Below are positions 4,052 to 21,378 of a stretch of 64,000 nucleotides of DNA, one piece after another (positions within the stretch are counted from its first letter, which is position 1; every line of letters begins with the position of its first letter). Made by a program: the position numbers and the translations under genes. The stretch comes from Tritrichomonas musculus (lineage: Eukaryota > Parabasalia > Tritrichomonadida > Tritrichomonadidae): positions 744,001 to 808,000 of the forward strand of contig JAPFFF010000051.1 in assembly GCA_039105265.1 (NCBI GenBank), written 5' to 3'. A model generated the notes under the pieces. The model was not told the DNA's origin, ran no database searches, and saw only the letters and a program-made list of their open reading frames with translations.

Positions 4052-4053
4052 TA

Positions 4054-4180
4054 CAGTCGTTTAGGAAATAGATTCTTTTTTTTAGGAAATAAATTCCACC
4101 AATTTGAATGGTTTACATGAAGGTTTATTTTTTTTAGGAAATAAATTATTTTTTTTAGGAAATAAATTCCAGAACGATTA
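4054..4180 (+). repeat. left terminal inverted repeat of the transposon
   Basis: About 127 bp matching the right end in inverted orientation, from CAGTCGTTTAGG to CCAGAACGAT. Four copies of a TTTAGGAAATAAATTC-type box lie at about 4060, 4081, 4133 and 4154. They are candidate transposase-binding sites. The left TIR has about 30 bp between boxes 2 and 3 that is missing on the right. Confidence 0.85.
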
Positions 4181-4210
4181 TTTCTAATTCAAATTTTTTA
4201 TTTAAAAATA

Positions 4211-6718
4211 ATGTTAACAAGATCGAAATCTCAAGCCAAAGAAAAGCAAATTCCTGAACCAAAGCAAAGTTTTTTAACAAGCGGGATTAGAAATGCAGGT
4301 TGCAGTTGCTACCTCAACTGTTTGCTACAGATCTTTGCAAATTACACTCCTTTATTTCTCCAAATTAGTAAGATAAGTCCCCAAAAAGAATTAGAAGCCA
4401 AATTTTACTTGATTATACAAAAACTCATGCAATCTAAAGAACCGATTTCAGCTAATTGTTTTTTATCTGTATTAGGAAGAGAACTTCATATTAATATCTC
4501 TAATCAGCAGAATTTTTTTGATGTATTAAATGATTTATGCCGCAAAATCCCAATTATTTCTGAATTGTTTCAATTTGATATTGATATATCATATTTTCAA
4601 AAAAAGGCAAAAAAGCCTTTTCAATTTGCAACAGATAAACAATTTTATTTAATTAATTTTTCTGAAAGCCAAAATCGAATGCCTGCCTTATCTGAAATTT
4701 TTGTTTTTAAAAATATAAGATTTGATGGGAAAATTTGTAAAAAAATTAAACAAATGACCTCATTACCACGTATATTAACTTTTTCAATTGAGTATCGTTC
4801 ATACAATCAAACCAATTTTGCATTTGCGACAAAAATAAATTTAAAAAAATATTGTAAAATAGCCACAAAAGAAAATTTTGATTATGAACTATTTGCAATT
4901 CTAGTTTACATAAGTTTGAATCCAGGTCTTGGTCATTATGTTGTTTACATTCGAAATTTCGAGTCTGATCAATGGTTCGAATATAACGATTCAAAAGTAA
5001 CTGCATTAAAATCATTAAAAGAAGTGAATGATCGAATGAAAACATCACATGTTTCTGGATTATTTTACGTCAACAAAAGCATTTTTTCCAATTTTCAAAA
5101 GAAAAAAAGAAAATATGAAAATGCGATGAATCTCTTTTGTAAACAAACTTTCGTAGAAAAAAATGATATTGATAATACTTTAGTTGTTAAAGATGAAAAT
5201 GACAAGTATGGCAACGATGATGCTCCATGTACATCAGATATTGCTGAATATGAATATAGTTATATTGATACAGATGATGACAACCATAGCAAAGATGGCA
5301 GCGATGGAGATGATGACAGCGATAGCAAAGATGGTAGTGATGGCAATGATGGCAGCGATAGCACATCTTTTAAGAAACACAATAATGATGATATTGACTC
5401 TAGTTCATCTGACTTAGATGTATTTTCTATTAATAAAGAAAACCAAGAAGACCATATGCAACACCATTCAGTCAATTTCAAACATGGTCCTATTGATTAC
5501 ATTGATGTTAGACCACACGGAAATTTAACTGAATATATAAAACAATCACCTCAAATCCCAGAAGACGAAGATCAAAGGCCTGAACCTGTACAAGTTGATT
5601 TAAGTGATGATCATTTCGAAGAGGTTTCTGAAATAAATAAAAAGGTTAACAAAGATGAAACAACCATACCAAAAGTTAAAGAAAAAAGCAAAAGATTATA
5701 TGTTAAAACCACTCAGGCACAAAGGGACAGGCTTCAGCAGTTATATAATGAACACCAAGATACATGGCCGACACGAAAATATTCGATTGAAACAGGAATT
5801 CGAGAACAAAATTGCATAAAACTAATAAAAAAAATTAGACATAATGAATCTTTGGAAATCAAAAATTACTTAAAAGGACGCAACCCAAAAATTGATGCCA
5901 AACAAATCAGGATTCTTCAAAGCTCAATTGAAGAAGATCCATTTATGACGCTAAAGCAAATGCAACAAAAGTTAAAAAATGAGTCTGAGTTGGAAGTTTC
6001 TCAGACACAGATTTGGGAAGGTATAGTTGGCAATACACAAGTGGGGAAAAGATCTGGTTGTTACGTTTATTCTTTTAAAACTGCATCCAAAAGGGATCCT
6101 GAAGCCAATTCATATGAAAATAAACTTATTAGAAAGGAAAGGGTGAAGCAACTAACTCAATGCCTAGTTGAAGGTTACGAATGGGTGTGCATTGACGAAA
6201 CAAGGTTTGATGTTGGATATGTTAGAGTTAAAGGGTGGAGCAAAAAAGGTAAAAAGGTTTATATCCATAGAAAAAAAAGAGGTTTTTCATGCTCTGCTCT
6301 TACAGCTATTGGACCCAATGGAATGCTGTATTGCACCCTTGTCAGAGGGAAAGTCACGGCCGAAATATATGATGCCTTTCTAGACCACTTAGCAGAAGAA
6401 CTTAAGTCAGACGGTCCAATCGTATTTTGGATGGACAATGCCAGCATTCACAACAATGCACAAGAAAAATTCAAAAGTTCAAAACATAAAGTAATTTTCA
6501 ATGCACCATATTCGCCAGAAATTAATCCAATTGAAAATATTTTTGGAGTATGGAAAGAAAAGATCACTAAAGAAATAGTTCAGTTTAAATCAGAGGCCGA
6601 ATTGTTAGATCTTATTAAAGAAACATTTACCAAGATCGATCCAGCTACAGTTCGAAAAACATTGGAAAATACCCGTTGGAATGTGTTTCCCAAAGTGATT
6701 AAACTTGAAGACTTATGA
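4211..6718 (+). CDS. USP-like (C19) cysteine protease domain fused to DDE transposase
   Basis: The protein has 835 residues. Residues about 23-270 look like a compact ubiquitin-specific protease. The Cys box is GIRNAGCSCYLNCLLQ (nucleophile Cys33) and the His box is GHYVVY (His242), followed by WFEYND where Asn259 or Asp260 would complete the triad. Residues about 340-400 are an acidic Asp/Ser/Gly-rich linker. Residues about 490-610 are a helix-turn-helix-like DNA-binding region. A DDE catalytic domain follows, with CIDETRFD, WMDNASIHN and PYSPEINPIEN. About 32 residues separate the second Asp from the Glu. The single reading frame has no break, and the ATG at 4211 lies just inside the left TIR. 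Transposase function is well supported. Deubiquitinase activity is inferred from conserved motifs. The domain is shorter than typical USPs and may act on ubiquitin-like substrates or as a structural module. Confidence 0.85.
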   Translation: MLTRSKSQAKEKQIPEPKQSFLTSGIRNAGCSCYLNCLLQIFANYTPLFLQISKISPQKELEAKFYLIIQKLMQSKEPISANCFLSVLGRELHINISNQQNFFDVLNDLCRKIPIISELFQFDIDISYFQKKAKKPFQFATDKQFYLINFSESQNRMPALSEIFVFKNIRFDGKICKKIKQMTSLPRILTFSIEYRSYNQTNFAFATKINLKKYCKIATKENFDYELFAILVYISLNPGLGHYVVYIRNFESDQWFEYNDSKVTALKSLKEVNDRMKTSHVSGLFYVNKSIFSNFQKKKRKYENAMNLFCKQTFVEKNDIDNTLVVKDENDKYGNDDAPCTSDIAEYEYSYIDTDDDNHSKDGSDGDDDSDSKDGSDGNDGSDSTSFKKHNNDDIDSSSSDLDVFSINKENQEDHMQHHSVNFKHGPIDYIDVRPHGNLTEYIKQSPQIPEDEDQRPEPVQVDLSDDHFEEVSEINKKVNKDETTIPKVKEKSKRLYVKTTQAQRDRLQQLYNEHQDTWPTRKYSIETGIREQNCIKLIKKIRHNESLEIKNYLKGRNPKIDAKQIRILQSSIEEDPFMTLKQMQQKLKNESELEVSQTQIWEGIVGNTQVGKRSGCYVYSFKTASKRDPEANSYENKLIRKERVKQLTQCLVEGYEWVCIDETRFDVGYVRVKGWSKKGKKVYIHRKKRGFSCSALTAIGPNGMLYCTLVRGKVTAEIYDAFLDHLAEELKSDGPIVFWMDNASIHNNAQEKFKSSKHKVIFNAPYSPEINPIENIFGVWKEKITKEIVQFKSEAELLDLIKETFTKIDPATVRKTLENTRWNVFPKVIKLEDL

Positions 6719-6780
6719 AATATCTTTTAATACCTTCTTAATTAATTAAAACAGAAATAATTTATCCTTATTTTATTATT

Positions 6781-8354
6781 TTAATTATCTTTTTTCGCTT
6801 TATCTACTTCACCATTGTTTTCTTCTTCTTCATCACCATCTTCTTCTTCTTCTTCACCATCATCATCTTCTTCTTCTTCACCATCATCATCTTCTTCTTC
6901 TTCTTCGCCATCATCACCATCTTCTTCTTCTTCACCATCATCTTCTTCTTCTTCTTCTTCACCATCATCATCTTCTTCTTCTTCTTCTTCGTCACCATCA
7001 CCATCTTCTTCTTAGTCATCATCTTATTCTTCTTCTTCGTCATCATCACTATCTTCTTCTTCTTCGTCATCATCACTATCTTCTTCTTCTTCGTCATCAT
7101 CACCATCTTCTTCTCCTTCGTCATCATCACCATCTTCTTCTCCTTCGTCATCATCACCATCTTCTTCTCCTTCGTCATCATCACCATCTTCTTCTTCTTC
7201 GTCATCATCACCATCTTCTTCTCCTTCGTCATCATCACCATCTTCTTCTCCTTCGTCATCATCACCATCTTCTTCTCCTTCGTCATCATCACCATCTTCT
7301 TCTCCTTCGTCATCATCACCATCTTCTTCTCCTTCGTCATCATCACCATCTTCTTCTCCTTCGTCATCATCACCATCTTCTTCTCCTTCGTCATCATCAC
7401 CATCTTCTTCTCCTTCGTCATCATCACCATCTTCTTCTCCTTCGTCATCATCATCTTCTTCTTCTTCACCATCATCATCACCATCTTCTTCTTCTTCTTC
7501 TTCACCATCACCTTCTTCTTCTTCTTCTCCTTCGTCATCATCATCATCTTCTTCTTCTCCTTCGTCATCATCACCTTCTTCTTCTTCTTCATCACCATCA
7601 CCTTCTTCTTCTTCTTCTTCTTCATCACCATCACCTTCTTCTTCTTCTTCTTCTTCGTCACCATCACCATCTTCTTCTTCTTCGTCACCATCACCATCTT
7701 CTTCTTCTTCGTCACCATCACCTTCTTCTTCTTCTTCTTCTTCGTCACCATCACCATCACCTTCTTCTTCTTCTTCTTCTTCGTCACCATCACCATCTTC
7801 TTCTTCATCACCATCACCATCTTCTTCTTCTTCTTCTTCGTCACCATCACCATCTTCTTCTTCTTCTTCTTCGTCACTATCACCTTCTTCTTCTTCTTCT
7901 TCTTCTTCACCATCACCTTCTTCTTCTTCTTCTTCTTCGTCACCATCACCATCTTCTTCTTCTTCGTCACCATCACCATCTTCTTCTTCTTCTTCACCAT
8001 CATCATAGTCATCTTCTTCTTCTTCGTCGTCATCATCACCATCTTCTTCTTCTTCTTCGTCATCATCACCTTCTTCTTCTTCTTCACCATCATCACCATC
8101 TTCTTCTTCACCATCATCATAATCTTCTTCTTCTTCTTCGTCACCATCACCTTCTTCTTCTTCATCACCATCACCTTCTTCTTCTTCTTCTTCTTCGTCA
8201 TCATCATTTTCTTCTTCTTCTCTGTCACCGTCACTATCGTCTTCTTTGTCACCATCATCTTCTTCTTCGTAGTCATCATCATTACCTTCATCTTCTTCAC
8301 CATCATCTTCGCCTTAATCCTCTTCATCATTATAATCTTTTTCAAAATTATCAT
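6781..8354 (-). repeat. low-complexity acidic-coding tract inside the transposon
   Basis: The plus strand is almost pure TTC/TTCTTCATCACC-type sequence. On the minus strand, the frame that ends with TAA at 6781-6783 reads as an acidic E/D/G protein with units such as DEGEEDGDD and EEEDYDDG. It finishes with a less repetitive tail, ENNGEVDKAKKDN. That frame has three internal TAA codons (7012-7014, 7024-7026, 8314-8316) and no visible ATG. A longer uninterrupted minus frame (6804-8354) reads only as Lys/Met/Val runs and is probably not the biological frame. This is either a decayed second gene of the element or a simple-sequence expansion. The 250 bp from 8355 to the right TIR show nothing else. 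Confidence 0.55.
7093..7446 (-). repeat. 27-bp minisatellite (about 13 units) within the acidic tract
   Basis: A 27-bp unit, nine codons encoding DEGEEDGDD in the acidic minus-strand frame, repeats about 13 times with very few changes. A unit length divisible by three and near-perfect copies suggest recent expansion in a frame that was once coding. Confidence 0.75.
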
Positions 8355-8607
8355 CTTTTGTACTTTTATATAATTTTCTTAAGTTTAAAAATTTATAAAA
8401 CCTGAATTTATATCAAATTTTATCATGACTAAATCCAAAGTTTTTTTCAATCTTTGATGATTCAAGAATTTCTTGTTAAAAATTGTAATATAATGTTTTT
8501 AATCTTGTATATTATTCGAATTATGTTTATAATCTCATTAACAATTTTGATAGAACTCTGGAAAGCTTTGCTGGTCCTTTTTTACAAAATAAAAATTGAA
8601 TGCAAAA

Positions 8608-8703
8608 TGATCGTTCTGGAATTTATTTCCTAAAAAAAATATTTTATTTCCTAAAAAAAAGAATCTGTTTCCTAAAAAAAAGAATTTATTTCCTAAACGA
8701 CTG
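8608..8703 (-). repeat. right terminal inverted repeat of the transposon
   Basis: About 96 bp, the inverted partner of 4054-4180, with four boxes reading GAATTTATTTCCTAAA or a close variant at about 8619, 8639, 8661 and 8682. It ends ...CGACTG followed by TA. Confidence 0.85.
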
Positions 8704-8706
8704 TAT

Positions 8707-20088: not shown

Positions 20089-21378
20089 TTAAGGTTTTTG
20101 AGATAAAGCTTTTTTAAAAATGTCCTTGACATACTCATTTTGATAGATTGGAAATATAACCAAGGTAAAATAGTTTTTAAGTCCTTCGTCAATTAAAACT
20201 TCTGCGAAAATTTTTGAAATATCAGAAGGATCGTTATTGAACACACCGCAGCCAAAAGCGCCAAGTATTAATATTTTATTTTTCTTGAATGCTGCTAATT
20301 TGATTATTTTTCTAATTCTTCTTTTCATTATCTCTTTGGAATTTCTAACATATTTTCTATTGTCTACAGCTGGTGCAGAAATAACGTTAACATTAAATGG
20401 AAAATTTAATGGTAAATTGTCATTGTCTCGAATGACTCTAACATTAGGAGAGTAAATCATGATATCTTTAGAATAAAGATTTCGTTCATTTCTGTAAGTA
20501 TCATACATTTTGCTTTCTTTGAGGGTAGGATAAAGAAATGTTTGACGGCAAAGCGATTCTTCTTGTGCATTCCTACCGTTTAAATAGCCACCGCCTGGAT
20601 TTCGAGCATCTGCAAAATTAAGGATGCATATTCTCGAGTAGCCACTGTCATGGTAATAAATAGCACTATCTATTGTGGAGTTTCCTGTAATATAAATTGG
20701 AGTTTCTTTTCTTATTGGAGGCTTTAATTGAGCATCAATATCTGCATGTTGAGGTTCATCGACTGTATCAATTCTATGGTCAATTAAATCAGGATTACGT
20801 TTTACATATTCATAATTTTCTTCTGCGATTTTTTTTCTTTTTAAATCAGCTTTAGAAAGTGGATGTTTGGGTTGATAAGATTTTTTGGTATTGTGATCAG
20901 TTTCTGGATAATCTATACTATTCATAGTCTTGCTTAGACTTTTATATTTTTTTGGAGGTTGTATAAAATTGTTAATATCGTATTGAAAATTATTAGGTTG
21001 ACTTGAATCTTTTTGATACTTTCCTATATTATTATTATTGCTTTGATACCATTGAAAATGATCAGTATAAGATTTACCTTTTTCTTCCTGGTTTATATCG
21101 CCTGTTAAATTATGAGATTGCCAGAGGACATTTTTATCTTTTTGTTTTGAAAAAATCAAATCGTATTGAGGGTTTTGAATACGATTAAACTCATTGTTAT
21201 ATAAGCATGGGGTGTATGAAGGAGATATTGATTTATCATATTCATGTTTATGAGGACACTCTAAATGATTTTTATTTTTGAAGTTTGATTCTTCATATGG
21301 ATAATAAGGTTGCCTAGGATCTAAGGGAGGGACACTAAAATATCGACAGAAAGGATAATAAATTTCATTATAATACAT
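20089..21378 (-). CDS. poly(ADP-ribose) glycohydrolase-like macrodomain protein (bacterial-type PARG, TIGR02452-like)
   Basis: The 429-residue protein has a C-terminal catalytic domain from about residue 190. It shows the PARG signature GGGYLNGRNAQEE, that is GGG followed after six residues by QEE, preceded by NFADARNPG and followed by SLCRQTFLYPTL. Further conserved blocks are MIYSPNVRVIRD, VNVISAPAVDNR and LILGAFGCGVFNNDP, as in the microbial-type PARG/TIGR02452 family. The second Glu of QEE would be the catalytic acid. Such enzymes remove ADP-ribose chains from proteins. The first about 170 residues are Asn/Tyr/Pro-rich, lack a known domain and are probably disordered, which makes this longer than bacterial relatives. 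No signal peptide is seen, so a cytosolic or nuclear location is likely. Confidence 0.85.
   Translation of the reverse strand: MYYNEIYYPFCRYFSVPPLDPRQPYYPYEESNFKNKNHLECPHKHEYDKSISPSYTPCLYNNEFNRIQNPQYDLIFSKQKDKNVLWQSHNLTGDINQEEKGKSYTDHFQWYQSNNNNIGKYQKDSSQPNNFQYDINNFIQPPKKYKSLSKTMNSIDYPETDHNTKKSYQPKHPLSKADLKRKKIAEENYEYVKRNPDLIDHRIDTVDEPQHADIDAQLKPPIRKETPIYITGNSTIDSAIYYHDSGYSRICILNFADARNPGGGYLNGRNAQEESLCRQTFLYPTLKESKMYDTYRNERNLYSKDIMIYSPNVRVIRDNDNLPLNFPFNVNVISAPAVDNRKYVRNSKEIMKRRIRKIIKLAAFKKNKILILGAFGCGVFNNDPSDISKIFAEVLIDEGLKNYFTLVIFPIYQNEYVKDIFKKALSQKP

Follow-up and report, generated by a model that had tools for sequence, protein, structure and literature searches.

Organization of the transposon and its gene

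Within the 64-kb stretch of Tritrichomonas musculus DNA that was analysed as a whole (the window) lies a complete transposon, the parts of which are collected in Table 1. Its ends at 4054 and 8703 fall outside the region that had been covered by the initial annotation of this DNA. The inverted repeats begin with CAGTCG, and the element ends read TA followed by CAGTCGTTTAGGAAATA. The hallmarks of IS630/Tc1/mariner elements, terminal inverted repeats plus TA target duplication, are thus present. All eight matches of the TTTAGGAAATA-type motif in the 64-kb window fall inside the two element ends, and these units of the inverted repeats probably represent transposase-binding sites. Element length varies among copies from 3824 to more than 5000 bp, when a deletion copy described below is set aside.

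Table 1. Coordinates of the transposon and its parts within the window
Feature	Positions	Strand	Remarks
TA target-site duplication, left copy	4052..4053	.	TA outside the inverted repeat at 7/7 left ends
Complete transposon	4054..8703	+	4650 bp; ends set by comparing 7 copies in the genome
Left terminal inverted repeat	4054..4198	+	Contains four subrepeats of the TTTAGGAAATA type (4060, 4081, 4133, 4154); inner boundary approximate
USP-transposase gene (predicted)	4211..6718	+	835 aa, intact frame without stop
USP (C19) domain, residues 25-274	4283..5032	+	Cys33, His242, Asp260; Pfam UCH 5.1e-23
Acidic linker, residues 301-480	5111..5650	+	Low identity between relatives
IS630/Tc1-type transposase region, residues 518-809	5762..6637	+	NCBIfam IS630; DDE_3; DDE domain with D79D32E spacing
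Tandem-repeat array with 516-aa ORF	6804..8354	-	Probably not coding
Right terminal inverted repeat	8579..8703	-	Four subrepeats 21 bp apart; inner boundary approximate
TA target-site duplication, right copy	8704..8705	.	TA at 6/6 right ends compared (all copies but L011)

The gene consists of one uninterrupted frame of 835 codons, as had been proposed when the DNA was first annotated; one frame of the opposite strand was inspected and contains many stops. In the encoded protein, labelled P0001, the Pfam profile UCH (PF00443) matched with 82.4 bits against a cut-off of 23.9 and covered profile positions 2-246 of 254, i.e. nearly its full length. The proposal of a USP of the C19 type is thereby confirmed by a profile comparison, and the boxes expected of such an enzyme were all found at the positions given in the initial annotation: Cys33 within GIRNAGCSCYLNC, His242 within GHYVVY and Asp260 within EYNDS (the WFEYND of that annotation). 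For the C-terminal part, a DDE domain of the Tc1/mariner/IS630 type had been suggested. This assignment is borne out both by DDE_3 (PF13358; residues 659-789, E 1.7e-24, 86.8 bits against a cut-off of 28.6) and by the NCBIfam IS630 transposase model, which reached 116.3 bits against a cut-off of 100. The Pfam family HTH_32 gave 24.1 bits, below its cut-off of 33.7; the same part of the protein is covered by the IS630 model, which starts at residue 518.

When P0001 was compared with PDB sequences (E<=1), the best 60 of the 61 matches comprised 59 USPs and one Sleeping Beauty transposase, the latter matching the C-terminus with E 0.028. Altogether, positions 4211-6718 are predicted to encode a USP (C19) domain followed by an acidic linker and a DDE transposase of the IS630/Tc1 type.

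The 516-aa frame within the tandem array was considered as a second gene and rejected. The array is open in several frames, varies in length between copies and has no Pfam match, and for these reasons the region is not counted as a gene.

Copies in the genome and evidence of mobility

The T. musculus genome (193.4 Mb in 746 contigs) was searched with P0001, and 54 of the 723 candidates were scored. At least five full-length copies are present, the one in the window included; four are 100% identical and free of stops, and one is 99% identical with a single stop. A frameshift divides the gene in a sixth copy, and others exist that are partial or decayed. One locus (L015) is an internal-deletion derivative of 1385 bp in which both ends and the TA are present.

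The flanks differ between the compared copies, but two of them, L011 and L012, both lie in similar satellite repeats. For five copies we searched for joined sites, i.e. the two flanks with one TA between them, and each was judged against its own flanks. The joined site of L012 was found exactly (42/42 bases) in two neighbouring satellite units and represents a paralogous empty site; for the other four copies just 24-29 of the 42 bases matched when compared with their own flanks. The inverted repeats, the TA duplication, the near-identical copies and the empty site of L012 show that this is a real and recently mobile element. It is an autonomous cut-and-paste transposon of the IS630/Tc1/mariner type with a single clear gene. 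T. musculus is described as a commensal of the mouse gut (PMC11978803), and the main text of that genome paper mentions neither transposons nor transposases.

Conservation of the fusion

Five proteins from outside this genome matched P0001, namely P0002 (99% identity) and four others at 51-57%. According to precomputed domains, both the USP and the DDE domain are present in four of the five; the record of the fifth, P0006, is truncated and stops short of the DDE domain. Since both domains also occur in all five full-length genome copies, the fusion is neither unique nor accidental, and the initial annotation withstands its own test for an accidental fusion. A profile search of the protein database (six matches from 6464 candidates, within the length limits) revealed no unfused close relative; its sole addition was P0012, an ordinary USP.

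Among the outside relatives, Cys33 is kept in all four that cover this residue (P0002 included), and His242 and Asp260 are kept in five of five. P0005 is without a Cys box, its frame beginning near residue 186. The relatives resemble P0001 most in the DDE domain (71-77% identity), less in the USP domain (48-60%) and least in the linker (33-39%, residues 301-415).

We then compared P0001 with decayed copies of the same genome. For the USP domain, dN/dS was 0.34 with L019 (294 codons) and 0.41 with L017 (222 codons); as the compared copies contain stops, these and the following figures average across the periods before and after loss of function, and synonymous change is near saturation. Changes in the USP domain were fewest at the second codon position with both copies (102/67/133 at the three positions with L019 and 108/67/114 with L017). 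The putative HTH and the DDE part together gave 0.12-0.39 across four decayed copies, while two more comparisons were saturated and yielded no value. In the aligned part of the linker (L019, 106 codons) the ratio was 0.19 and hence even lower than that of the USP domain, so that dN/dS does not single out the latter; as far as such averages reach, the ratios show constraint on the predicted protein as a whole. In the decayed copy L019, Cys33, His242, Asp260 and Asn28 are all kept, and the catalytic triad is likewise kept in L017 and L019 where it is covered. These alignments show the predicted active-site residues of the USP domain to be retained. The fusion is not accidental, since the diverged relatives keep both domains and the USP ratios lie at 0.34-0.41; judged from sequence comparison, it is old and selected.

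A second USP-like domain on a different transposase lineage

Another USP-like domain was found in the same genome on a different DDE_3 transposase lineage (L065/L069/L070; C1:10653000-10656600, frame of 999 aa). With UCH the first 290 aa of L065 reached 36.9 bits (cut-off 23.9), and the Cys, His and Asp positions are kept, as judged by eye. The DDE domain of L065 shares 33% identity with that of P0001 over 92 aa. Like the element in the window, this family is multicopy, with a 97% copy lying in two frames at C18:2346483-2348230.

With regard to a single origin of both USP fusions, BLAST aligned the USP domains of P0001 and L065 in one segment of 95 aa surrounding the His box, at 27% identity. 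A tree was calculated with 30 host USPs out of 138 scored, C12:5430770, the best host USP match to P0001, being left out. The two transposon-borne domains fall in separate places of this tree, but their branches are very long and the support is weak. The USP domain of P0001 stands beside the host sequence L046 (92/88 support; branch length 4.29 changes per column), and L046 itself belongs to a region in which the Cys boxes are USP7-like. The domain of L065 diverges strongly, with a branch of 5.95. The USP family of T. musculus is large: at least 138 of the 271 PF00443 candidates were scored, and the matches listed all exceed the cut-off.

A third family with an Rpn10-like domain

In a DDE_3 survey of the genome, 150 of 720 candidates were scored and several long frames were among the matches listed. 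The N-termini were viewed at nine loci (L052-L056 and L065-L068) picked by closeness or frame length. An N-terminal domain that belongs to no Pfam family was seen in L052 and L053, and part of it in L054. The three loci lie on C22, C40 and C12, respectively, and P0009 is an outside member of the same IS630/Tc1-like family. Three copies of the L053 family (C40, C12 and C2) show about 97% nucleotide identity; the left end of the family reads TA followed by CAGTCTTTACGG, and the flanks differ between copies.

Neither single-sequence searches nor Pfam gave a relevant match for this domain, and its likeness to Rpn10 appears in profile searches alone. Four sequences, two of this genome plus two outside relatives (one partial), were combined into a profile that was compared with PDB (E<=10). 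The best seven of its ten matches were six named Rpn10/PSMD4 entries and one 'VWFA domain-containing protein', the best reaching 3e-5, and the remaining three were a dehydrogenase at 0.36-1. The domain also finds three host frames of 303-371 aa (L061-L063; 8.7e-7 to 8e-4), whose VWA profile in turn matched Rpn10 in PDB with 8e-31 and the same VWFA protein with 3.2e-28. When the domain was aligned to these three host Rpn10 homologues by hhalign, 170 columns were covered with a probability of 97.4% in a run without negative control.

The N-terminus of the L053-type transposase aligns collinearly with the VWA-like domain of host Rpn10. The two proteins differ in their ubiquitin-binding UIM motifs: according to Pfam, UIMs are present in the host proteins L062 and L063 (the L061 sequence is partial) and absent from the transposases L052, L053 and L054. 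By these profile comparisons, a third DDE_3 family appears to bear a VWA-like domain closest to Rpn10, a receptor of the 26S proteasome. Given the second USP-transposase and the Rpn10-like transposase in one and the same genome, such elements seem to have become linked to the ubiquitin-proteasome pathway on more than one occasion and through different parts.

These transposases have also captured a domain from outside that pathway: the 744-aa transposase frame of L066 (C73:226000-227600) carries an N-terminal RRM (4.6e-12). The N-termini of L067 and L068 are low-complexity repeats, and for L055 and L056 the DDE part alone was listed. As this survey of N-termini was small and non-random, we claim no enrichment of ubiquitin-proteasome domains. 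Frames as long as that of L066 also occur at C17:636402 and C5:6893160.

Ulp1 (PF02902) gave at least 150 matches from 441 candidates; many of them score equally and lie in frames close to 505, 526 and 742 aa long. These are apparently multicopy genes and perhaps mobile; no frame shared by Ulp1 and DDE_3 was noticed when the matches listed were compared by eye.

Relation to known transposons with protease domains

The nearest precedent is a T. vaginalis protein combining C19 and Transposase_11 (XP_001314237.1), which is mentioned by Bao et al. 2010 citing Gladyshev and Arkhipova 2009 (PMC2836005). As in the T. musculus element, a C19 deubiquitinase is joined there to a DNA transposase in a parabasalid, but the transposase is of the pfam01609 type instead of IS630/Tc1/mariner. 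A search of the T. musculus genome for PF01609 gave 20 matches, all of them within frames that, at 172-417 aa, are too short to hold a fusion of C19 and Transposase_11. We take the pfam01609 transposase to be IS4/IS5-like.

Ginger1 transposases of Hydra and other animals are described as carrying OTU or Ulp1 domains (PMC2836005). They resemble the T. musculus protein in that a DDE transposase is combined with a cysteine protease of the ubiquitin/SUMO pathway, but OTU and Ulp1 are C-terminal and the transposase is like a Gypsy integrase, whereas the T. musculus USP is N-terminal. The same source also mentions Ulp1 in Mutator and OTU in Helitrons; the Ulp1-bearing Mutator-like elements are again DNA transposons with a protease of a ubiquitin-like modifier, but they have Ulp1 instead of USP and belong to the Mutator superfamily (PMC2836005). 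Tvmar1 of T. vaginalis is likewise a Tc1/mariner element of a trichomonad (PMC4021607), and the main text of its description mentions neither ubiquitin nor a peptidase nor a domain. Neither ubiquitin, nor a peptidase or protease, nor a fusion is mentioned in the main text of the paper on IS481EU transposons of parabasalids (PMC10045372).

In the openly licensed literature, a scope outside which many subscription papers and the Repbase reports lie, we found no report of a Tc1/mariner-USP or an Rpn10-transposase fusion. The novelty suggested by the initial annotation therefore stands, as far as found, for Tc1/mariner transposases; for transposases in general it would not hold in view of the T. 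vaginalis protein. What is new is the N-terminal USP on an IS630/Tc1/mariner transposase, while deubiquitinase-transposase fusions as such have precedent. With OTU and Ulp1 in Ginger1 and C19 plus Transposase_11 in T. vaginalis, the T. musculus USP fusion is a variant on a known theme.

Possible role of the USP domain

In the reading that we favour, and to which we assign a probability of roughly one half, the USP domain acts in cis on the transposase or transpososome of this autonomous IS630/Tc1/mariner element, which would thereby escape or control its proteasomal removal. The DDE part would move the element into TA sites, the targeting being evident from the anatomy of the element and catalysis being presumed, and the transposase would bind the repeated units within the inverted repeats. 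The USP domain would strip ubiquitin off the transposase or other proteins of the transpososome, and the deubiquitinated complex could then escape, delay or shape removal by the proteasome. The existence of an Rpn10-like sister family suggests that these elements depend in some way on contact with the proteasome.

The USP domain might instead act in trans, at the donor or target site, on chromatin or repair factors such as ubiquitinated H2A/H2B, PCNA or components of DSB signalling. The transposase would carry the domain to DNA, and for the OTU and Ulp1 domains of Ginger1 a function in repair was suggested by Bao et al. 2010 (PMC2836005), but the Rpn10-like domain of the sister family points to the proteasome and not to chromatin; on balance we rate an action in trans as rather unlikely. 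A domain that is no longer an enzyme, and now serves as a binding or oligomerisation module recognising ubiquitin or a partner, would be consistent with the lower conservation of USP than of DDE, with P0005 and its missing Cys box, and with the strong divergence of the L065 domain. However, Cys33, His242, Asp260 and Asn28 persist even in the decayed L019, and the triad is kept in the relatives covering those positions. We regard such a loss of activity as improbable.

Slightly less probable still is that the domain cleaves a different ubiquitin-like modifier, be it SUMO, NEDD8 or one specific to the lineage. The closest PDB sequence to the N-terminus is USP18 (1.9e-7, 33.0 bits), and the substrate of USP18 is ISG15, not ubiquitin. 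P0001 also has a weak match to the SUMO isopeptidase family Peptidase_C98 (E 0.033, below the Pfam cut-off). Against these stand USP47 (27.8 bits) and USP7 (21.2 bits), which come next in the PDB ranking and are followed by USP2, as well as the tree position, on its long branch, by a host sequence among USP7-like Cys boxes. That the fusion arose by chance, or is a host gene domesticated next to transposon DNA, has hardly any probability: nothing was found in favour of either version, the multiple full-length copies refute both, and both are opposed by the different flanks of the five such copies, by the inverted repeats with TA, and by the same fusion in diverged relatives.

An action in cis may be extended, tentatively and by analogy, to the other families. 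Parabasalid transposases may have captured ubiquitin-proteasome parts repeatedly because transposition is limited by that system. The Rpn10-like fusion might recruit the 26S proteasome to unfold and remove the spent transpososome, much as ClpX does with MuA, and the USP fusions would delay this removal, i.e. the two would set opposite timing of one step. We consider this wider proposal possible but doubtful.

Ubiquitin-pathway proteases on DNA transposases have so far been scattered cases with a role that was merely guessed. The T. musculus genome holds three DDE_3 transposase lineages that bear two USP-like domains and one proteasome-receptor-like domain, and with three such lineages in one genome the guessed role becomes testable by simple assays. 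They suggest that jumping genes have tied themselves to the protein-disposal system of the cell. If this is true, transposition would have a general control point in the handling of the transposase by ubiquitin, and a transposase that comes with its own stabiliser could serve as a tool.

Other open reading frames in the window

Nine other ORFs of the window were scanned. They include two BspA-type leucine-rich repeat proteins and one Myb protein, as expected for a trichomonad. The ORF at 20089-21378 on the minus strand (429 aa) contains a microbial-type PARG domain at residues 213-318 (1.2e-31).
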